This document shows positions 19,282 to 47,175 of a stretch of DNA of 64,000 nt, one piece after another. The notes beneath the pieces were generated by a model. The model was given only the letters and a program-made list of their open reading frames with translations, had not been told where the DNA came from and did no database searches. A program made the translations under genes and the position numbers. The first letter of the stretch is position 1; each line of letters begins with the position of its first letter. The stretch comes from Paludibacteraceae bacterium. GTDB taxonomy: Bacteria; Bacteroidota; Bacteroidia; Bacteroidales; Paludibacteraceae. The stretch is taken from contig JAKSLB010000018.1 of NCBI GenBank assembly GCA_024401435.1, positions 1-64,000 on the forward strand, in the 5' to 3' direction.

Positions 19282-21207
19282 ATGAAATGTAAAAATCAGA
19301 TTTTAATAACGGTTAATTTATTTATTACCGTTTTCACCATGAACGTTTTTGCAGCGCAAACGTTAAAGGTGGATTTGACGGATAGTATCCGTCCTGCAAC
19401 ACATTGTGCGTCGGGAGCTCTTTATGGTATTACAGCCGATCTCCCTAGTGATGTAAATAATATGATAGCTCCCTTAAAGGGGAATGTTTATGTACAACCG
19501 GCTATTAGTGGTAATGGTCATCAGCAACCCATTGGTGATGCTTTTGATGTGGCAAAAAGGTTGCAAGGCACCACTGGTAAGGTTCAGATACGGTTAGCTG
19601 ACATCTTACCAGGATGGCCTTATCGATGGCCTGGTCAACAGTCTTGGTTAAATAGTGTCAAGGATATTATTCAAAAGAAATTAAACTCTGGATTGGATAA
19701 TTTTGATAGTTATGAAATTTGGAATGAACCGAATGGCACTTGGCAAAATTCGAATGGAGATTTCCATTCTACTTTATGGAAACCAACCTACGATTTGATT
19801 CGTCAGTTAGATCCTAATGCAAAAATTGTAGGTCCGTCTTATTCCTATTATAACTCTTCTCAAATGGAATCATTTCTAAAGTATTGCAAAGAAAATAACT
19901 GTTTGCCTGATGTGATTTGTTGGCATCAATGGGGAAGTGAAGGTTTTATCGGAAGTGTGGAGAATTTACGTCAGATAGAATCAAGATTGGGTATTTCGGA
20001 AAGACCTCTTTCTATTAATGAGTATTGTGCAGGATCAGGTTCAGACAAGCAAAAGTTTGAAGGATGTCCAGGTTATTCCGTTCCTTTTATTGCTAAATTC
20101 GAACGAAACAATGTAGAGAGTGCTATGATATCATGGTGGTTTGTCGGGTTGCCTGGACGTTTGGGTAGTTTGTTGACGTCTGGTAATCAGAAAGGTGGAG
20201 GATGGTGGCTCTATAAATGGTATGGAGATATGACGGGATATATGGCAATGGTGACGCCTCCTAATGATAAGAGTGATGGTATAGATGGATTTGCCGCAGT
20301 CGATGCAAAACAAAATTATGCCTCTTTGGTATTGGGTGGAAATTATACGGGAGACGTGAATGTTGTCTTTCAAAAGCTCCCAGCCTTTTTGGGTGGGAAA
20401 GTACACGTAAAAATAGAACGTGTCACTTGGAAGGATAAAGATTCACAGGTTGCTTCTACGGATTTGATTTCAGAGACCGATATGAACATAGATGGTACAT
20501 CGCTTACAGTCCCAGTGAAAGTGGAGAGTCAATTGTATGGCTATCGTGTTTATCTGACACCATTGGATGTTCCACAAACACCATACAATAACAAAATAGC
20601 AGTGATTCCAGGTAGGGTTGAGGCTGAGAATTATGATGTGGCAGGACAGGGTTTTTCTTATTATGATAATGATACTGAAAACAAAGGAAAAGAGTATCGC
20701 GAAGATGGAGTTGATGTGGTGACCGGTGGTTCTGGTTACGCTGTTGGATATACAGAGAAGGGAGAATGGTTGGAATATACGGTGAATGTGGAGGTGACAG
20801 GTGATTATGTGATTACGGCTAATGTTTCTGATGCAGCAGAAACGGAAGGATTTCAATTGTATCTTGATGGGAAACCATTGACAGAAGAGTATACGATACC
20901 TCAGATTTGTGAAGATTGGAATACTTATGAAGAGGTATCTATAGCTGCGGTTCATTTAGAAGAAGGTGAACATGTATTAAAGTTACAGATTGTTGGAAGT
21001 TATGTGAACATTGATTGGTTGAACTTTGAGACGATTGATCCTGCGAGCGAGAAATTGGTTAGAAATGATGATTCAACGGAGGGAAATATTAAATATTTCG
21101 ATTTGAAAGGTGTTCAGTTGATACCCGCACAACTTCAAGAAGGTAGAATTTATATTTCTATTACAGATGATACGGGAGAGGTGAAGAAATATTTAAAAAG
21201 ATGGTAG
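19282..21207 (+). CDS. Secreted GH39-like glycosidase with CBM6, copy 1
   Basis: 641 residues: signal peptide (1-24), a clan GH-A barrel (about 26-350), a beta-sandwich linker domain (about 350-430), CBM6 (about 438-585, from VEAENYDVAGQG to VNIDWLNF) and a T9SS-like tail (YFDLKGVQLIPAQL). Likely acid/base Glu149 (IWNEPNG) and nucleophile Glu247 (INEYCAG), spaced as in GH39-type retaining enzymes. CBM6 usually binds xylan or beta-glucan. The exact activity (beta-xylosidase, endoxylanase or other) is open. The next gene is a tandem paralogue, very similar throughout. Confidence 0.82.
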   Translation: MKCKNQILITVNLFITVFTMNVFAAQTLKVDLTDSIRPATHCASGALYGITADLPSDVNNMIAPLKGNVYVQPAISGNGHQQPIGDAFDVAKRLQGTTGKVQIRLADILPGWPYRWPGQQSWLNSVKDIIQKKLNSGLDNFDSYEIWNEPNGTWQNSNGDFHSTLWKPTYDLIRQLDPNAKIVGPSYSYYNSSQMESFLKYCKENNCLPDVICWHQWGSEGFIGSVENLRQIESRLGISERPLSINEYCAGSGSDKQKFEGCPGYSVPFIAKFERNNVESAMISWWFVGLPGRLGSLLTSGNQKGGGWWLYKWYGDMTGYMAMVTPPNDKSDGIDGFAAVDAKQNYASLVLGGNYTGDVNVVFQKLPAFLGGKVHVKIERVTWKDKDSQVASTDLISETDMNIDGTSLTVPVKVESQLYGYRVYLTPLDVPQTPYNNKIAVIPGRVEAENYDVAGQGFSYYDNDTENKGKEYREDGVDVVTGGSGYAVGYTEKGEWLEYTVNVEVTGDYVITANVSDAAETEGFQLYLDGKPLTEEYTIPQICEDWNTYEEVSIAAVHLEEGEHVLKLQIVGSYVNIDWLNFETIDPASEKLVRNDDSTEGNIKYFDLKGVQLIPAQLQEGRIYISITDDTGEVKKYLKRW

Positions 21208-21299
21208 TTTCTCAATGGAATTATGGGTTTATACTTCGTTATGAAACAAAAATTATACTTTTCGGACAATTATTTATAGAATCATGATATTTTGACTTC

Positions 21300-21307
21300 T
21301 ACTTTTG
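21300..21307 (+). promoter_or_regulatory. -7 box upstream of second GH39-like gene
   Basis: TACTTTTG, 71 bp before the start; it resembles the box of the first copy, so each duplicate probably has its own promoter. Confidence 0.45.
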
Positions 21308-21378
21308 CGAAGTGTAGAGAGATAAATAACCATAAAATTGAATTTGTATATTAAATAAAATCGTAAAATCATAGAGCC

Positions 21379-23307
21379 ATGAAACTTATAAATAGAATTA
21401 TCGCATCTTTTGCATTAATAGGTATTCCTATGCAAAATGCAATTTCAGCAGCTACATTGAAAGTCGATTTGACAGATAGTATTCGTCCCGTTACGCATTG
21501 TGCTTCTGGTTCTCTTTATGGAATGACAGAAACGCTTCCTGCTAATGTGGATGAGATGGTTAAGCCTTTAAAATGTAATTTGTTTTGTCTTCCTCCAGAA
21601 GGAACATCTGCCAATCAACACGCATTTGGAGATGGATTTATCGTTGCCAATAGATTAAAGGGAACGACAGCCAAAGTGCAGATAACCTTCCCGGATCTTC
21701 TTCCTAACTGGCCTTATAGATGGCCTGGACAACAGTCTTGGTTAAGCTCAGTAGAGAAGTATTTAAAAAAGAAAGTGGAGGGTGGCTATGATAACATTGA
21801 TAGTTATGTAATTTGGAATGAACCAGACGGAACATGGAATAATAGTAATGGTGATATTAATACAACTGTTTGGAAACCAACATACGATTTGATTCGTAAG
21901 TTAGATCCGGGTACAAAGATTGTGGGTCCTTGTATAGCGTATTATCATAATGATAGAATGAGAAGTTTCCTTAAATTTTGTAAGGAGAATAATTGTTTGC
22001 CAGACTTGATTTGTTGGCATCAATGGGGAAGTGGAGGTTTTGTTGGAGCTGTGGAGCAAGTTCGTGCGTTGATGAAGGAGTTAGGTATTTCTGATCGTCC
22101 TTTCTGTATCAATGAGTATTGTGCTGGTTCTGATGAGAGCACCAAGAAGTACGAAGGATGTCCAGGTTATTCAGTACCATTCATATCTAAGTTTGAACGT
22201 TATAATGTGGAGAGTGCAACCATCTCTTGGTGGTTCGTTCCACTACCAGGTCGTTTGGGTAGTATTTTAACATCCAGCAACCAAAAAGGTGGAGGATGGT
22301 GGCTCTACAAATGGTATGGTGATATGGAAGGATATATGGCAAGGGTAACACCTCCTAATGATAAAAGTGATGGTGTAGATGGATTCGCTGCCGTAGATGA
22401 AAAGAATTATTGCGCATCTCTTGTGTTAGGTGGTAATACAGAAGGAGAGGTAAATGTTGTATTCCAAAAACTTCCAGACTTCTTAGGGGGTAAAGTACAT
22501 GTGAAAATCGAACGTGTAACATGGAAAGATAAGGATACTCCTGTTAATGGTACAGAGTTGGTATCAGAGACAGATATGACATTGGACGGAACGGGTCTTA
22601 CTGTTCCTGTAAGAATCGAAAGCAAACTATATGGATATCGTGTTTTCTTAACGCCATTGGATGTGCCACAATATCCTTTTAATGACGAAGCTGCTTCTAT
22701 CCCTGGTAAAATAGAGGCTGAGAACTATGATATTGCAGGACAAGGATTTGCTTATTCAGATAAGGATTCAGAGAACAAAGGTGGAGAGTATCGTCAGGAT
22801 GGTGTTGATATTGTTAAAGGAGGAAGTGAATACGCGATAGGATATACTGAAAAAGGTGAATGGTTGGAATATACGGTGAATGTTGAAGAAACGAATGATT
22901 ACGTAATTACAGCTAATGTTTCTAACTCTGCAGAAATAGATGGATTTCAATTGTTTGTTGATGGAAAGACAATTACAGACCAATATACAATTCCTCAGAC
23001 ATGTGAGGATTGGAACACTTATGAGGAGGTGCCTATTACAACTGCTCGTTTGGAAAAAGGAGAACATGAATTGAAACTTCAAATTGTTGGTGATTATGTG
23101 AATATTGATTGGTTGAAGTTTGAAACATACGATCCAACAGGTGTGAAATTGGTCACGAACGATGTGGATGTTGAATCATTGGTAGGTGCACAATTTTATG
23201 ACATGAGTGGTCATATGGTCAATGCTAACGAATTACAACAAGATAGAATTTATATGGTGGTGATACCAGGTAAAAAAGAAGGAATTAAATTTATTAGAAA
23301 ACAATAA
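21379..23307 (+). CDS. Secreted GH39-like glycosidase with CBM6, copy 2
   Basis: 642 residues with the same architecture as the gene before it: signal peptide (1-24), GH-A barrel with Glu148 (IWNEPDG) and Glu246 (INEYCAG), CBM6 (about 438-585) and a T9SS-like tail (FYDMSGHMVNANEL). Long stretches are identical to copy 1 (e.g. PNWPYRWPGQQSWL against PGWPYRWPGQQSWL). Differences gather near residues 65-85, a likely substrate-facing loop. The duplicates probably cover related xylan structures. No operon partner other than copy 1. Confidence 0.82.
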   Translation: MKLINRIIASFALIGIPMQNAISAATLKVDLTDSIRPVTHCASGSLYGMTETLPANVDEMVKPLKCNLFCLPPEGTSANQHAFGDGFIVANRLKGTTAKVQITFPDLLPNWPYRWPGQQSWLSSVEKYLKKKVEGGYDNIDSYVIWNEPDGTWNNSNGDINTTVWKPTYDLIRKLDPGTKIVGPCIAYYHNDRMRSFLKFCKENNCLPDLICWHQWGSGGFVGAVEQVRALMKELGISDRPFCINEYCAGSDESTKKYEGCPGYSVPFISKFERYNVESATISWWFVPLPGRLGSILTSSNQKGGGWWLYKWYGDMEGYMARVTPPNDKSDGVDGFAAVDEKNYCASLVLGGNTEGEVNVVFQKLPDFLGGKVHVKIERVTWKDKDTPVNGTELVSETDMTLDGTGLTVPVRIESKLYGYRVFLTPLDVPQYPFNDEAASIPGKIEAENYDIAGQGFAYSDKDSENKGGEYRQDGVDIVKGGSEYAIGYTEKGEWLEYTVNVEETNDYVITANVSNSAEIDGFQLFVDGKTITDQYTIPQTCEDWNTYEEVPITTARLEKGEHELKLQIVGDYVNIDWLKFETYDPTGVKLVTNDVDVESLVGAQFYDMSGHMVNANELQQDRIYMVVIPGKKEGIKFIRKQ

Positions 23308-40438: not shown

Positions 40439-40459
40439 ATTCATGGTTAATTAAGTGGG

Positions 40460-40495
40460 AGGAAGGATGCGATGATGTATCCTTCCTTTTTTTTG
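40460..40495 (+). terminator. Terminator of the beta-helix/GH95/GH2 operon
   Basis: AGGAAGGAT / ATCCTTCCT stem followed by eight or more T. Confidence 0.85.
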
Positions 40496-40592
40496 TGGGG
40501 TATAATACTGACTCAAATCAGACGATAAGTTAAGAAAATGAAACCATTACTGTTTGCTAAACGTGAAAATGAAATTCTAAAATACTGAAATA

Positions 40593-40609
40593 TAGCGGAT
40601 TGTAACAAT
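40593..40609. repeat. TAGCGGA-type intergenic motif
   Basis: TAGCGGATTGTAACAAT; see the similar copy at 9464-9480. Confidence 0.35.
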
Positions 40610-40654
40610 TATAAAATGAACCATGAGGTTACGTCGCCTGATATCTATGTAGCG

Positions 40655-41266
40655 TTAATTATATCCTTTCTCTTTTAGTTTATTTTTAATTTGTAATGCC
40701 ACATGATATGCCAAATTCACAGGAACGGCATTCCCGATCATTTTATATCCATAATTGACATCATCATAAATGAATTTGAAATCATCGGGGAATCCTTGTA
40801 CTCTTGCAACTTCACGAACAGTCATTCTTCTATAAAGATTTTCTTTTTCTCTTTCGCTGGAATTGCAGAATCCTTCAAATCCCAAATGCATTCGCGAAGA
40901 GTAGGTTTATGCTCTAATGGTTTCGGATACTCAAAATCATGGATGTTCAAATCTTTCCTGAATCCGATGTAAAAAATCCTTTCACGGTCTTCTGCCACGT
41001 CAAAATCGTTTGCGTTCAACAATTTCAAGTTCACATCATAACCTGCGTCGTCAAAAAGTTTCAGAAAGTTTTTGACTGCTACAGAATGTCTCTGTGCAAG
41101 CATACCTGAAACATTCTCTGCGACGAAAAACAAAGGTTTTTGTCTTTTATAATTCGGATATATTCGTAAAATAATTGTCCTCTTGCATCTTCAATTCCTT
41201 TCAAGGATCCCGCTTCGCTCCAAGATTGACATGGTGGTCCGCCGATGATTCCATCAATTATCTCAT
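40655..41266 (-). pseudogene. Decayed cytosine-C5 methyltransferase (third copy)
   Basis: A broken relative of the intact methyltransferase at 42796-43797. Reading on the minus strand, the start ATG (41264-41266) is followed at once by codons near [12 protein letters not shown], so about 190 bp of the N-terminus is gone. A second deletion of about 210 bp, with a frameshift, removes the whole target recognition domain between SAIPAKEK and ENLYRRMTV. The remaining protein sequence is about 95% identical to the intact copy over the stretch [10 protein letters not shown] to SAIPAKEK, while the DNA differs at many third positions (about 86% identity in a 210-bp piece I compared). It cannot make an active enzyme. 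Confidence 0.85.
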
Positions 41267-41312
41267 ATTGAATATATTATGGGGTATCATTAGGGAAACA
41301 AAAATAAGCAAA

Positions 41313-41342
41313 AGGAGCAAAAAGCCCAAGCCCTTTGCTCCT
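41313..41342 (-). terminator. Hairpin downstream of the left GH94 fragment
   Basis: AGGAGCAAA / TTTGCTCCT stem with 12-base loop; on the minus strand T-rich sequence follows. It resembles, with changes, the hairpin at 44659-44696 that follows the real GH94 end, so the two are probably diverged copies of one terminator. Confidence 0.65.
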
Positions 41343-41379
41343 CTATTATCAGTATAAGAATTCTTATTTCTTAATTAAG

Positions 41380-41449
41380 ATTATCCCATCACAACAACCA
41401 CCTCGTTCACATTCTTCATCTTGCTGAAAGGAACGACGTTGCCTTCGAT
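41380..41449. repeat. 70-bp direct repeat, left copy (GH94 3' end)
   Basis: These 70 bp are identical to 44778-44847. They contain the last 22 codons (IEGNVVPF to VVVVMG) and stop codon of the GH94 gene, cut off from the rest. They lie 5 bp from the end of the second methyltransferase gene and mark the left edge of the inserted restriction-modification genes. Confidence 0.95.
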
Positions 41450-41454
41450 AAAAA

Positions 41455-42792
41455 TTAAAAATTCACAATCACTGGAGAATATGAATTTAGATATGGTGTA
41501 CAACCCTTTAAGATATTTAAAGCTATAGGATTCTCTGAAAATATCTCTTTGTCGAGGTTTACTATATAATAATTTTCCCTTTGGGGATGGAAGCCTAATG
41601 ACTTCAAAAAACTAGCAGAAACTTTTGTTACATCTTTATCTTTAAGTGTAAACAAATATCTATTCCCATTATTATGTAATAATAAATACGATGGACATAC
41701 ATTATCTAGCCTTATTATAGGAAAATAATATATACCTTTAGATAAAATAAGATTTAAATGATTTTGCCCCTTGTAGTATCCAATTAAAATATGATTATTT
41801 TTAGTTTTTTGAGAAAAAGCTTTAACGATACTTTGAGCCATAACAAATCCTAGTTTTGGAGGAACAGCATTACCTACCATTTTGTATCCATCTTTCACAT
41901 TAGAATATATAAATTTAAAAGTGTCTGGAAAACTTTGAATTCTAGCACATTCTCGTACACTTAACCTTCTATATAAATGTTCATACCCCTTTTTAAATAC
42001 CCTTTTATTAGGATTTACATATACCATTGTCGGAGCTTGAGGATGAATTGGAGCATTTTTCGCCAATGCTTGAATTGTGAATGATGGTTCGTGCCATTTT
42101 CTAACACGATTTCTAGACATGAATTTCTCATCAAATGGACCAATATAAACATCGTGATTAGGAATTATTTCCTTATTATCTTGAAGAACTATTCCATCTT
42201 TATATTCTCGAGGGGGTATTGCAATATCTCCGATAGCATCTTTTAAAGTTATTATTCTATCACTTAATCCTTTAGGAAATTCATAAGTAATATCCATGTC
42301 ATTTCTTATGCCTATAACAAATACTCTTTCTCTATCTTGTGGTATTCCATAGTTTTTTGCATTTAATACTTTGTGAGAAATTTTATAATCCGCAGATTCT
42401 AGTTCCAAAATGAATCGTTCAAATGATATACGATGTTTTTCCGTTAATATTCCAGGTACATTTTCTATAAGGAAAAATTTAGGTCTCTTAGCTTTTATTA
42501 ATCTAATATATTCGAGGAAAACACGTCCTCGTTCATCCTTTAATCCTAATCCTTTTCCTCCTTCACTCCATGCTTGACATGGTGGGCCTCCAATAAATCC
42601 ATCACATTCTGGTATTTCTTTAGGAGTGATATTGCAGATACTTTTTGAACTAAGAATCACTTTAGGATGATTATATAAATAAGTTGGGCAAATGGTTTGG
42701 TCATATTCATTTGCCCATACAACATTAAAGCCAACATTTTCAAACCCCAGGTCTAATCCTCCACAGCCAGAGAAAAATGAAACTACTTTCAT
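41455..42792 (-). CDS. Cytosine-C5 DNA methyltransferase M2
   Basis: 445 residues. Motif I FFSGCGGLDLGF, motif IV with catalytic Cys72 (GGPPCQAWSEGG), motif VI ENVPGI, motif VIII QDRERVFVIG, motif IX RRLSVRECARIQSFPD and motif X GNAVPPKLG. The target recognition region (FTIQALAKNAPIHPQAP) differs from that of M1 ([17 protein letters not shown]), so specificity may differ. About 110 extra residues (335-445) follow motif X; they match nothing I know and end 5 bp from the island boundary. It starts 3 bp after the M1 stop, in the order R-M1-M2. Confidence 0.92.
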   Translation of the reverse strand: MKVVSFFSGCGGLDLGFENVGFNVVWANEYDQTICPTYLYNHPKVILSSKSICNITPKEIPECDGFIGGPPCQAWSEGGKGLGLKDERGRVFLEYIRLIKAKRPKFFLIENVPGILTEKHRISFERFILELESADYKISHKVLNAKNYGIPQDRERVFVIGIRNDMDITYEFPKGLSDRIITLKDAIGDIAIPPREYKDGIVLQDNKEIIPNHDVYIGPFDEKFMSRNRVRKWHEPSFTIQALAKNAPIHPQAPTMVYVNPNKRVFKKGYEHLYRRLSVRECARIQSFPDTFKFIYSNVKDGYKMVGNAVPPKLGFVMAQSIVKAFSQKTKNNHILIGYYKGQNHLNLILSKGIYYFPIIRLDNVCPSYLLLHNNGNRYLFTLKDKDVTKVSASFLKSLGFHPQRENYYIVNLDKEIFSENPIALNILKGCTPYLNSYSPVIVNF

Positions 42793-42795
42793 TGT

Positions 42796-43797
42796 TTATT
42801 CATATCCTTTCTCTTTAAGTTTATTTTTAATTTGTAGTGCCACGTGATATGCCAAATTCACAGGCACAGCGTTTCCTATCATTTTATATCCATAATTGAC
42901 ATCCTCATAAATGAACTTGAAACCATCAGGAAATCCTTGTACTCTTGCAACCTCGCGAACAGTCATCCTTCTATAAAGATTTTCTTTCCCTTTTACGAAT
43001 TCTTGTTTATTTAGTCCAACTTTTACCATTTTGGGAGCTTGTGGATGCAATTGGCACTGTCTACCACTCGCTTGAACAGTAAATCCAGGCTCGTCCCAAC
43101 TTCTAACCCGATTACGTGACATAAATATTGGAGAGTACGCACCAATGAAATATTCATGATTAGGGACTTTACATGCCTCACCGTTAGTGTGGTTTTTCTC
43201 CTTTGCTGGAATAGCAGAATCTTTCAGGTTCCAAATGCATTCACGAAGAGTAGGTTTATGCTCTAATGGTTTTGGATACTCAAAATCATGGATATTCAAA
43301 TCTTTTCTGAATCCGATGTAAAAAACTCTTTCTCGATCTTCCGCTACATCAAAATCGTTTGCATTTAACAATTTTAAGTTCACGTCATAACCAGCCTCAT
43401 CAAAAAGCTTCAAAAAATTTTGAACTGCTACGGAATGTCTTTGAGCTAGCATTCCCGAGACATTTTCAGCCACGAAAAACAAAGGTTTCTTATCCTTTAA
43501 TATTCGTATATATTCATAAAATAGCTGACCTCTTGCATCTTCGATTCCCTTTAAAGAACCTGCTTCACTCCACGATTGACATGGAGGTCCACCAATGATT
43601 CCATCTATATTATCTGGGAAATCAGAAGATTGTATGTCTCTGATATCTCCGTCCAATAAATCTACATCTGGAAAATTAGCTCTAAATGTAGGGCATATTT
43701 TTTTATCGTATTCGTTAGCTGCAACAGTGGTAAATCCTGCCTTGTGGAACCCAAGATCTAACCCTCCGGCACCACTAAATAAACTAATTAGTCTCAT
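42796..43797 (-). CDS. Cytosine-C5 DNA methyltransferase M1 (HaeIII/NgoPII-like)
   Basis: 333 residues, with all motifs: [12 protein letters not shown] (I), Cys73 in [12 protein letters not shown] (IV), AENVSGML (VI), [13 protein letters not shown] (VIII), [15 protein letters not shown] (IX), [10 protein letters not shown] (X). It closely resembles M.HaeIII through the recognition domain ([30 protein letters not shown]), so methylation of GGCC is likely. It protects host DNA from the adjacent endonuclease. Its ATG overlaps the stop of the endonuclease gene by 4 bp. Confidence 0.94.
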
Positions 43798-44636
43798 ATT
43801 GAATAAGATATAAGAACAGCGTCTTTAAATTGAGCCGGGTTATTAGGATTTTTTATTTTAATATCTTTAATGACGATATTTGAGTTTGTCTTTGCCAAAT
43901 TTTCTAACTCTTCGAAATTATTCAGCTTCTCTTTCTTCTCTTTATTGATTATTGCTCGAAAATTAAATTCTTTATTGGAATCAATATCAAAGATACTTTC
44001 GAAAGCTACAAATGGATTTTCGATATGCCACATTCCACGGATTCTTAAGTAGGTTATACCTAAAGGATCAACTCTATTAACCCGACCTAGTTCTTTTGTC
44101 TCAGAAAACTCCACATCTGGTATTGTGAGAATACCATCTTTTATTTTGTTTTTTATATTTTCATATACTTCTTTACTAGCACAATAATCCTCTCCGTAAA
44201 CGAATGACAATGCAATCATTTTCTCATTATTGACAACACCTACAATATAAAGCATATCTCTTTCTTTCCATTCTTCGCATTCTCTACATGCCTTGTTTAT
44301 CAATGTGCTATCGGAATAGAGCTTTTCTTTGGGGTAACTACTATTTAATGCTAAAGCAGAACCGATTTGCTCGATTTTTTTTACTTCTATGGCATCTCCT
44401 CCATTTTTAAGCATAGAGTCTGGTGGATTGTTTTGGTTCCCTAAATAAGAAAAAGTCTCAGATATCTTAGTGTCACGAATAGATTCATCTGTAATTTCTT
44501 GAGTATTTGCAAAGATATCTTTTACATAGTTTTCCAATGCTTCTCCCATTTGATTTGCTCGATTATTTGAAGAGCTTCTATTGGGTAAACTTTGAGATTT
44601 TACGACATTTATAATCGCATTTACTATATTATACAT
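43794..44636 (-). CDS. NgoPII-like type II restriction endonuclease
   Basis: 280 residues from the ATG at 44636 ([15 protein letters not shown]); an alternative at 44669 adds 11 residues. It resembles the NgoPII family: [38 protein letters not shown] with the catalytic [48 protein letters not shown] and [14 protein letters not shown]. NgoPII cuts GGCC, which fits the HaeIII-like methyltransferase M1. The order R then M1 with 4-bp overlap makes methylase translation depend on the nuclease message. The codons look AT-richer than those of GH94 next door. Confidence 0.9.
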
Positions 44637-44658
44637 AATAACAATGCTTGCGTTTATA

Positions 44659-44696
44659 ATAGAGAGCAAGAAGCTTGAGGTCCCTTGCTCTCTCTA
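44659..44696. terminator. Hairpin between GH94 and the endonuclease gene
   Basis: AGAGAGCAAG / CTTGCTCTCT stem with 13-base loop, about 80 bp beyond the GH94 stop. It probably ends the GH94 transcript, although no long T run follows on the minus strand. Confidence 0.6.
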
Positions 44697-44727
44697 TCTA
44701 TCTTGATCGAACTAATTATCTTCTTCG

Positions 44728-44754
44728 CCATAGGCGTATTCAATACGCCCCTAC
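44728..44754. repeat. REP-like GGCGTAT palindrome
   Basis: GGCGTAT-TCA-ATACGCC (44733-44749) followed by CCTACGAG. It has the form of short repetitive extragenic palindromes seen in many genomes; only one copy is in this window. Confidence 0.4.
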
Positions 44755-44777
44755 GAGCAGATGTTAATTCTTCATTA

Positions 44778-44847
44778 ATTATCCCATCACAACAACCACC
44801 TCGTTCACATTCTTCATCTTGCTGAAAGGAACGACGTTGCCTTCGAT
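44778..44847. repeat. 70-bp direct repeat, right copy (in GH94)
   Basis: The in-place copy, forming the last 22 codons and stop of the GH94 gene; identical to 41380-41449. Confidence 0.95.
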
Positions 44848-47175
44848 GGCTTTTCCATTCAATGTAACTGAAACAACACCTTTTTCTACTTTCTTAGGGT
44901 TCTTGACAGTGATGTTCACGGTCTTGCCACGGAAACGACGAGTAGCGGTGAAGCCCTTCCAACCTGGGATACATGGATCGATTAACAATCCTTCGTAGTC
45001 AGGACGGATACCCAAGATGTATTGTGCAGCTGTGAAGTATGCCCATGAAGCTGTTCCACTCAACCATGGACAACGGCTTTGACCTGCACGCATGTTGTAA
45101 GTTGAACAAGTGGTCTGCGCATATACGTAAGGTTCGATTTGGCGAACTTCAGCACGTTCGTTGTATGCAGCTGGTAAGTAGTTTTTATAGTTCTTGAAAG
45201 CACGTTTACCATGACCTAAGATACAATCTGCCATGATACCCCAACCTTGTGTGTGTTGGAATACGGCTGCATTCTCTTTCATACCTTTGATGAATAAAGG
45301 AGCCTTGATTACAGATGCTTCTGTCTTCTCGTATGGAGGATCACAAAGAACTAAACCATATTTGATAGCCAAACGCTTCTCGACACTGTTCATGACTGTT
45401 TCAGCACGTTCGCCTGTAGCTTGTCCGGAAATAACAGACCATGAGTTAGGGTTCAACCAAATTGTACCTTCATTGTTTGGATCGTTCTTCGTACCGAAGA
45501 TGTAACCATCTTCTTTGATAGCACGAACATACCATTCGCCATCCCAAGCTGCTTTGTCGATATCTTTTGTAAGACGAGCTAAATGTTGCTCAGCCCATTT
45601 TACTTCATTTGCTTTGTTCAAACGGTTGCAAATGTCGATGTAGACTGTCAACGCGTAGCGCAATTGCATTGCTACGAAAATAGTCTCACCTTTAGCACCC
45701 AATACCAAACAGTCATTCCAGTCAGCTTTCAAACCGCAAGGCAAGTTGTTTTTACCGCAACGGTCTAAGTTGAATTGAATGGCACGTTTCAAGTGATCCA
45801 AGACGGTTCCTTCACCCTTGTCTGAATAAGGTAATACTTTGTTATAGTAGTCGATGTTACCCAATTCCTTTACATAAGTAGGAACTGTGCAGAACAACCA
45901 CATACAGTCGTCTGAACGGAACTCGTTTTCTGGAGTTGGAGCCTCGTGACCTGGATTGTGTGCAAATGGTTTAACCACTGGCATGGCACCACCATTGGAG
46001 TTTTGTCCCGTCAACATTAATTCAAGACGTTCAACCACCTCTTCAGGAATGTTATGGATAACACCCAACATATCTTGGATGGTATCACGGTAACCCATAC
46101 CATCACGTTCACCACGATAAATCAAAGAAGCTGCACGGCTCCAAGCGTATGTGATTAAGTTATTGAATGGATTCCACATATTGATCATGCTATTGAAAGC
46201 AGCATCTGGTGTATTAGCTGAAAGACCTTCGATACGTCCGTGCCAGTAGTTAACCACTTTGTCGAATTCAGCTTGAACCTTAGCTGGTGTAGCTACCATT
46301 TTTGCAGCCTTCTTTCCTTCTACCCAAGCCTTACCAATACCAAGTACTACAGTGAACTCCTTCGTTTCTCCAGCAGCCAATTCCAAGTCTACTTGAAGTG
46401 TACCGCAACCATTGTCACCTTCAGTTACTGTATTACCACATTGACCATTTACAACTGACAATGGGTTTGCATATGTGTGATAAGCTCCGATGAACTTGTC
46501 ACGGTCACTATCATAACCAGTTACTTTCTGACCAACAACACCGATGAAAGAGTGGCGAGCTTGGTCCTTGTTTTGGAAGTTTTCTGGTTCTTCTGGCATG
46601 TATAGGTTGTTACCATGGTCGATGAAACCGTTCTTGTATGCGGTTTTGATGATATACTGTGTATATTGCAAGTTATTGCTATCATCGTTCATGTTCCAGT
46701 TTGAAGCGAATTCAGCATAGGTGAAAGCACGTAATTTACGAGATTTCTTACCCATGTTAGTCACTTTCACGTGCCAAACTTCAAACTCTTGACCTTTAGG
46801 AACGAAGTAAAGTGTTTCTGTTTTGATGTTGCTATACTCAGAAGAGATCTTTGTATAAGCAGAACCATGACGGCATTCGCTTTTGTATTGATCAAGCGGT
46901 TTGCCAACAGGTTGCCATGAACCAGACCAGAAGTCTTTTGACTCACAGTCGTGTAGGTAGATGTAGCGACCTGGTTGATCTAATGGAACGGTGTTGAACT
47001 TGATTCTCAAGAAACAACCTTGAACTGATGAGCGGAAGAATGAATAACCTCCTGCATTGTTGGTGATAATAGCTCCGTAACGGGTATCACCCAAGTAGTT
47101 ACTCCATGATTTGGGAGTGTCTGGTTTGGTGACGACATATTCCTTGTGCTCGTCGTCGAAAAATCCGTATTGCAT
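44779..47175 (-). CDS. Cellobiose phosphorylase, GH94
   Basis: 798 residues, no signal peptide, so cytoplasmic. It splits cellobiose with phosphate into glucose-1-phosphate and glucose, saving ATP. N-terminal MQYGFFDDEHKEYVVTKPDTP, the beta-sandwich and (alpha/alpha)6 barrel, the catalytic Asp in LKADWNDCLVLG, GERDGMGYRDTIQD and the C-terminal SRCPWLSGTASWAYF match cellobiose phosphorylases. Complete and intact although its last 70 bp are duplicated beyond the restriction-modification genes. It would use cellobiose released by the secreted GH5-type enzymes. A -7 box lies 41 bp upstream. Confidence 0.95.
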   Translation of the reverse strand: MQYGFFDDEHKEYVVTKPDTPKSWSNYLGDTRYGAIITNNAGGYSFFRSSVQGCFLRIKFNTVPLDQPGRYIYLHDCESKDFWSGSWQPVGKPLDQYKSECRHGSAYTKISSEYSNIKTETLYFVPKGQEFEVWHVKVTNMGKKSRKLRAFTYAEFASNWNMNDDSNNLQYTQYIIKTAYKNGFIDHGNNLYMPEEPENFQNKDQARHSFIGVVGQKVTGYDSDRDKFIGAYHTYANPLSVVNGQCGNTVTEGDNGCGTLQVDLELAAGETKEFTVVLGIGKAWVEGKKAAKMVATPAKVQAEFDKVVNYWHGRIEGLSANTPDAAFNSMINMWNPFNNLITYAWSRAASLIYRGERDGMGYRDTIQDMLGVIHNIPEEVVERLELMLTGQNSNGGAMPVVKPFAHNPGHEAPTPENEFRSDDCMWLFCTVPTYVKELGNIDYYNKVLPYSDKGEGTVLDHLKRAIQFNLDRCGKNNLPCGLKADWNDCLVLGAKGETIFVAMQLRYALTVYIDICNRLNKANEVKWAEQHLARLTKDIDKAAWDGEWYVRAIKEDGYIFGTKNDPNNEGTIWLNPNSWSVISGQATGERAETVMNSVEKRLAIKYGLVLCDPPYEKTEASVIKAPLFIKGMKENAAVFQHTQGWGIMADCILGHGKRAFKNYKNYLPAAYNERAEVRQIEPYVYAQTTCSTYNMRAGQSRCPWLSGTASWAYFTAAQYILGIRPDYEGLLIDPCIPGWKGFTATRRFRGKTVNITVKNPKKVEKGVVSVTLNGKAIEGNVVPFSKMKNVNEVVVVMG

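Follow-up and report, generated by a model that had tools for sequence, protein, structure and literature searches.

A GH94 gene end in Bacteroidales as a candidate reused landing site for restriction-modification modules

Introduction

Insertion with long target duplication is already known for restriction-modification (RM) genes and was reportedly described for RM gene complexes by Nobusato et al. in 2000 and by Furuta et al. in 2010, both from the Kobayashi group. The site described here is a variant of it. It lies in a 64-kb stretch of DNA from a Paludibacteraceae bacterium, referred to below as the window (all 64,000 nucleotides that were analysed; part of contig C90 of the draft genome G000, which comprises 204 contigs), where one endonuclease gene and two methyltransferase genes stand between two identical copies of the 3′ end of a GH94 gene (cellobiose phosphorylase-like). 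Judged by the sequences of this locus and its counterparts in relatives, the gene end looks like a reused hotspot that exhibits such insertion with long target duplication.

The background is formed by a small number of published observations, which are cited here from excerpts of the respective papers. The target duplications that appear to accompany the insertion of RM systems are long and variable, and the resulting repeats are expected to permit tandem amplification (PMC3031569). In Helicobacter pylori, RM cluster B is flanked by a direct repeat that may reflect an insertion of this kind (PMC4978471). On a broader scale, complete RM systems are acquired in small regions with apparently little dependence on mobile elements; that their turnover is fast while few of them reside on such elements was considered an intriguing question, for which small integration hotspots or transformation were suggested (Oliveira et al. 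2014, PMC4176335). In the RM and recombination literature surveyed by title and opening of the abstract, with no search aimed at GH94, no mention of a GH94 insertion site was found.

An RM island between two copies of a gene end

Of the seven families of direct repeats of at least 40 bp listed for the window, only one is exact, i.e. a 70-bp pair whose copies are 100% identical (70 of 70 positions; Table 1), whereas the other six are 65–89% alike. A sequence-only reading of this DNA had given the coordinates and the full identity of the pair, and had assigned the right copy to the end of GH94 and the left copy to a detached duplicate; both statements hold. It had further placed exactly an endonuclease and two methyltransferases between the copies. 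Among open reading frames (ORFs) of at least 80 aa, R, M1 and M2 are indeed the only genes in this interval, but it also contains about 118 bases of GH94-type terminator (T1) between the right copy and R, which a simple terminator scan does not list. The three genes form an operon-like run on the minus strand, in which R and M1 overlap by 4 bases and M1 and M2 are separated by 3 bases. The coordinates of R are those of the longest ORF with a TTG start, the ATG at 44636 being the likelier start codon. With a PF09521 endonuclease and PF00145 C5-methyltransferases, the gene content is that of an NgoPII-type RM system, which we take from the family name to be specific for GGCC. Also in agreement with the sequence-only reading, which saw no integrase, transposase or tRNA, no recombinase or integrase gene is present among R, M1 and M2, the only genes of the insert, and ARAGORN finds no tRNA gene in the window.

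In line with the claim that GH94 remains intact since the duplication restores its end, the gene is full-length. The distal copy differs from the GH94 end of G000 itself at 0 of 69 positions. Compared with 18 other GH94 ends, it shows 5–16 differences in 69 bases, and its derivation from the GH94 of another species was rejected for these 18.

Just outside the left repeat lies a relic of M1, overlooked in the sequence-only reading, that lacks codons 1–63, is frameshifted and has suffered an internal deletion of about 200 bp. By its sequence, this pseudogene is what remains of an earlier restriction system at the GH94 site. Hence, the island is not the product of one single clean insertion event.

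The two coding copies are followed by terminator-like hairpins that have diverged from each other. T1 and T2 are identical at 54 of 67 aligned bases in G000 and at 52 of 66 in the relative G011, with 55 gap columns in either alignment that include the REP-like palindrome of T1. Between these two genomes, 107 of 114 bases are identical for T1 and 58 of 64 for T2, and the T1 type is common to G000, G011 and a third genome, G012. The coding copies, in turn, are identical within G000 and within G011, and show 7 differences in 69 bases between the two. One simple target duplication does not yield the difference between T1 and T2. Two haplotypes of the species, with identical coding ends and different DNA downstream, could give rise to it by recombining on one side; alternatively, the copies may have undergone gene conversion later on. 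The former is preferred, as it would also account for the reuse of the site: incoming DNA that carries a GH94 end could place itself by homology.

Table 1. Features of the island and its borders in the window.
Feature	Position	Strand	Remarks
Right (proximal) 70-bp copy	44778..44847	-	last 22 codons, stop (44779-44781) and 1 base of GH94
Left (distal) 70-bp copy	41380..41449	-	detached from any GH94 reading frame
GH94 (cellobiose phosphorylase-like), host gene of the insertion site	44779..47175	-	intact, 798 aa; Pfam PF17167 and PF06165
T1, GH94-type terminator-like hairpin	44661..44778	-	REP-like palindrome (44733-44754); between GH94 and R
R, NgoPII-family restriction endonuclease	43794..44669	-	Pfam PF09521, E 6e-105; PADLOC REase_II
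M1, C5-cytosine methyltransferase	42796..43797	-	333 aa; Pfam PF00145
M2, C5-cytosine methyltransferase	41455..42792	-	445 aa; Pfam PF00145; stop 5 bp before distal repeat
T2, terminator-like hairpin after distal copy	41311..41344	-	diverged from T1
M1 relic (pseudogene)	40655..41258	-	85-91% nt identity to M1

Elsewhere in G000, contig C201 (L002, 3127 bases) carries a second GGCC-type system, which consists of a HaeIII-family endonuclease and a methyltransferase. Within the window, paralogous stretches about 2.1 kb apart and 74–77% identical occupy positions 19673–22380.

The GH94 site in related genomes

A query composed of R and the 3′ part of GH94 finds matches in 13 (G000 included) of the 16 draft genomes of the genus, and the GH94-end core is present in 10. 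This 29-base degenerate core of the 70-bp repeat, searched with at most 3 mismatches, occurs twice in G000 and G011 and once in eight further genomes, and is absent from six. Together with L036, the ten genomes that carry it make up 11 comparable loci, all with downstream sequence. The named kin of G000 are metagenome-assembled genomes (MAGs) of Paludibacteraceae and other Bacteroidales, many of them from rumen and horse faeces; the GH94 protein is 96.8–97.8% identical at the amino acid level in eight relatives and 92% in two.

Defence or candidate-defence genes are located downstream of GH94 in 8 of the 11 loci. Five of these harbor type II systems, of the NgoPII kind in G000, the HaeIII kind in G010 and the HpaII kind in G011, G004 and G015. 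M1 and M2 of the HaeIII system are 93% and 60% identical, respectively, to their counterparts in G000. HaeIII and NgoPII are given as an example of convergent evolution in an excerpt of PMC4081073, so that the two R genes that stand beside related M genes at this site encode unrelated enzymes. Such a pairing of unrelated endonuclease families with related methyltransferases at one site is instructive. In G119 (L210, 6918–10769), a HaeIII-family and an NgoPII-family endonuclease precede two C5-methyltransferases in one operon-like run, which is a possible intermediate of endonuclease exchange.

The three other loci with defence genes contain, according to PADLOC names that partly denote candidate systems, two GmrSD-like genes and a PDC-S02 protein (G003), a PDC-M11A protein (G005) and an HEC-01 pair (G014). 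A short stretch that matches the start region of the DUF1016 gene of G003 is found at the site in G013, and an AAA_14/DUF4143 gene in L036. Finally, G012 represents an empty site, with a single GH94-end copy and the terminator hairpin directly followed by an MFS gene. This is the arrangement that the sequence-only reading had predicted, i.e. one copy running straight into its hairpin, albeit seen in another species. In more distant relatives, an AbiE-type pair (L081, 12509–14106) and a RhuM/Fic protein (L044, 4895–5836) were observed directly after GH94.

In all five type II loci, sequence of the GH94 end or its terminator recurs beyond the module, whereas none of the six others has such a second copy; this corresponds to a Fisher p of 0.002 with related genomes treated as independent. 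Neither two copies of the GH94 end in relatives that lack the RM genes nor an island always fixed with GH94, both of which the sequence-only reading had proposed to look for, was thus encountered among the comparable loci. The span of the repeat differs from locus to locus: it is exact over 70 bp in G000 and over 58 bp in G011. In G010, it extends over about 38 bp at 84%, and the M2 frame reads into the copy in the GH94 frame; in G004 and G015, it covers about 42 bp at 86% of the terminator only. The modules end tightly at a stop codon in these loci. In G000, the repeat begins 5 bp past the M2 stop. In G011, it begins at the stop codon of R, its first triplet being the TAG of that gene; the related R in G004 and G015 has a TAA stop of its own. 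In the latter two genomes, the repeat begins 2 bp after an 84-aa ORF without Pfam match.

A further footprint comes from L046, a more distant locus left out of the 11 as its contig is possibly chimeric (it contains a 466-bp piece in two copies that are 88% alike). Here, an HpaII module lies between two copies of about 140 bp, terminator included, with 1 mismatch in 139 aligned bases. Three GH94-end copies occur in this one contig (12159–12407, 14693–14939 and 17625–17765), the second of which combines the GH94 ends of two lineages as a mosaic. The GH94 piece before the module resembles the GH94 of the contig itself and switches to the end of the other lineage within a few bases of the repeat start.

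Repeats were also observed around AAA_14/DUF4143 ATPase genes. In L075 (G003) and L039 (G005), about 5 kb after GH94, such a gene lies between 80-bp direct repeats (82.5%) that contain the start of the gene itself. One matching copy each is found in G014, G010 and G004. These ATPases might conceivably move likewise.

Control loci and possible carriers

In 358 genomes, 48 matches to the NgoPII, HaeIII and HpaII endonuclease families were obtained, five of which are the systems at the GH94 site. From the other 43, 29 matches at 28 loci were taken, since one locus combines a HaeIII with an NgoPII match; the 14 left out were partial or weak. Five loci with less than 1 kb on one side were dropped (L194, L196, L206, L002 and L216); all of these except L206 were nevertheless run and gave no match. 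Among the loci of the family with enough flank, a clear footprint was found in 1 of 23, namely in G021, where an exact 35-bp direct repeat (L209, 21–55 and 3833–3867), present in two copies in that genome, bounds a HaeIII three-gene system. Its left copy lies 68 bp past the stop of M2, with 20 bases between it and the contig end. Two weaker cases, L198 (26 bp, low complexity) and L218 (86 bp at 80%, plus a second match), were judged not to be such footprints. The contrast of 4 of 4 with 1 of 23 gives a Fisher p of 0.0003, in which kinship is ignored and four events, the upper count, are assumed.

Carriage by a phage or plasmid was considered as well and gained no support. The 29-base GH94-end pattern was found in 0 viral contigs, a relative of R is encoded by none of 118 candidate stretches, and the plasmids searched contain no near match of 40450–44900, all of which are weak negatives.

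How the modules may arrive

A plausible account, and probably the right one, is that the GH94 3′ end and its terminator serve as a reused landing site for RM modules, which enter by homology-anchored insertion without an integrase. A compact module would join between GH94 and its downstream neighbour and leave a second copy of the GH94 tail, the terminator or both on the far side. GH94 would thereby stay intact, and the module would come to sit between two terminator-like hairpins. Presumably, the module arrives as foreign or conspecific DNA that pairs by homology with the GH94 end on one side, while on the other side an illegitimate junction would form within the GH94 end on a sister copy, with no need for a dedicated recombinase. 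Then, the two repeats could recombine with each other, which may lead to loss, exchange or homogenization. This account starts from observed features, i.e. the duplication, its identity to the GH94 end of the same genome, the empty site in a relative, several cargoes, variable borders and an older relic. With regard to the insertion with long target duplication that the sequence-only reading had seen in the island, the duplication, the identity to the own GH94 end and the site in G012 support it, but a single clean event does not agree with the M1 relic, with the other defence genes in relatives and with the difference between T1 and T2.

Several points weigh against a landing site of this kind. 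The relatives are drafts, mostly MAGs with one per species, and hence other species rather than strains. In G003, G005 and G014, defence genes are present without a repeat. Conversely, L036 lacks a type II system, and yet its AAA_14/DUF4143 gene lies between two 42-bp copies that are 83% alike (+87..+128 and +1574..+1615, counted from the GH94 stop). The first copy starts just past the terminator hairpin, the second 4 bp after the stop of the gene, and the repeat includes a short tandem motif. Taken as a footprint, this repeat changes the comparison to 5 of 5 versus 1 of 6 (6/462 = 0.013, calculated by hand), and restriction genes would then not be the only ones subject to the process. At random sites of named loci, some flanking repeat was found in 31 of 165 cases at an E value of 0.001, and comparable repeats (at least 35 bp, 84%, within 4.5 kb) in 6 of 165; three of these six are again GH94-end/terminator repeats (L037, and L046 twice) and the other three are one repeat in L060. 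Furthermore, the different terminators beside identical coding copies would have to be put down to polymorphism in the population, to gene conversion or to exchange on several occasions. Finally, M1 of G000 and G010 share 82% of their nucleotides and are thus about as diverged as GH94 (85%), so that the systems of these two genomes could go back to one old insertion.

The number of insertions at the site consequently amounts to between two and four. Two is the safe minimum, one of the GGCC and one of the CCGG kind, with both specificities inferred from the family names. G004 and G015 probably share one insertion.

Among the alternatives is a direct insertion of the RM unit with long target duplication. 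As in the Kobayashi proposal, either the unit itself or chromosome breakage would drive it, and no homology to a donor GH94 would be needed. The anatomy fits, with RM genes only, a long duplication of variable length and an intact target, and the nearly identical copies of about 140 bp in L046, terminator included, resemble a nearly fresh footprint of such an event. However, it would leave unaccounted for why the same gene end holds different cargoes across species and why T1 and T2 differ beside identical coding copies. As an explanation of the site, it is considered rather unlikely. A little less credit still is given to a scenario in which the GH94 end and terminator were duplicated in tandem once, long ago in an ancestor, with later exchange of the cargo through ordinary recombination and with gene conversion keeping the coding copies alike. 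Indeed, the T1s of G000 and G011 resemble each other, as do their T2s, more than T1 resembles T2 within a genome, and the coding copies agree within each genome while differing between the two. Yet, an ancestral duplication is at odds with the different repeat starts in G000 and G011, with the single T1-type end of G012 and with the duplication of the terminator only in G004 and G015.

Many integrase islands restore the 3′ end of a gene upon insertion, as is the case here, and the GH94 end could likewise be an attachment site for a recombinase that acts in trans. As the start and length of the repeat vary between G000, G010, G011 and G004/G015, with terminator only in the last pair, no fixed core is apparent and a fixed-site integrase fits badly; together with the lack of a recombinase gene in the insert, this makes site-specific integration very improbable. 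An assembly or binning artefact, which the fragmented draft state of G000 might suggest, is hardly credible in view of similar structures in the separate genomes G010, G011, G004 and G015.

Returning to the homology-anchored landing site, a wider version of it can be put forward tentatively, with less than even confidence. The GH94 3′ end might act as a recombinase-free attachment site, at which defence modules, RM systems among them, pair homologously and so pass from one species to another, each arrival rebuilding tail and terminator. The repeats would keep exchanging, and modules would be stacked, swapped (including unrelated isoschizomer endonucleases beside related methyltransferases) or lost.

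Comparison with known systems

Like the RM insertions with long target duplication, the island consists of RM genes flanked by a long direct repeat of variable length that is made from the target. It differs from them in that the GH94 end holds several defence modules across species, a relic of an earlier system, and diverged terminators beside identical copies. With RM cluster B of H. pylori, as far as the excerpt of PMC4978471 describes it, the locus shares the flanking direct repeat, whereas phylum and target are different and the repeat is made here from the end of a metabolic gene plus its terminator. Homology-facilitated illegitimate recombination, as outlined in an excerpt of PMC3240628, would explain both the fixed gene end and the variable borders by one homologous and one illegitimate junction, and may be the process at work at the GH94 site.

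In its setting, the locus resembles the hotspots considered by Oliveira et al. 2014 (PMC4176335, as excerpted): here, too, complete RM systems are found in a small region, with apparently little dependence on mobile elements. To these, the GH94 site adds one concrete hotspot with footprints at the level of the junctions. Taken together, the locus looks like an RM hotspot with readable junctions, in a group of Bacteroidales whose named kin come from rumen and horse faeces.

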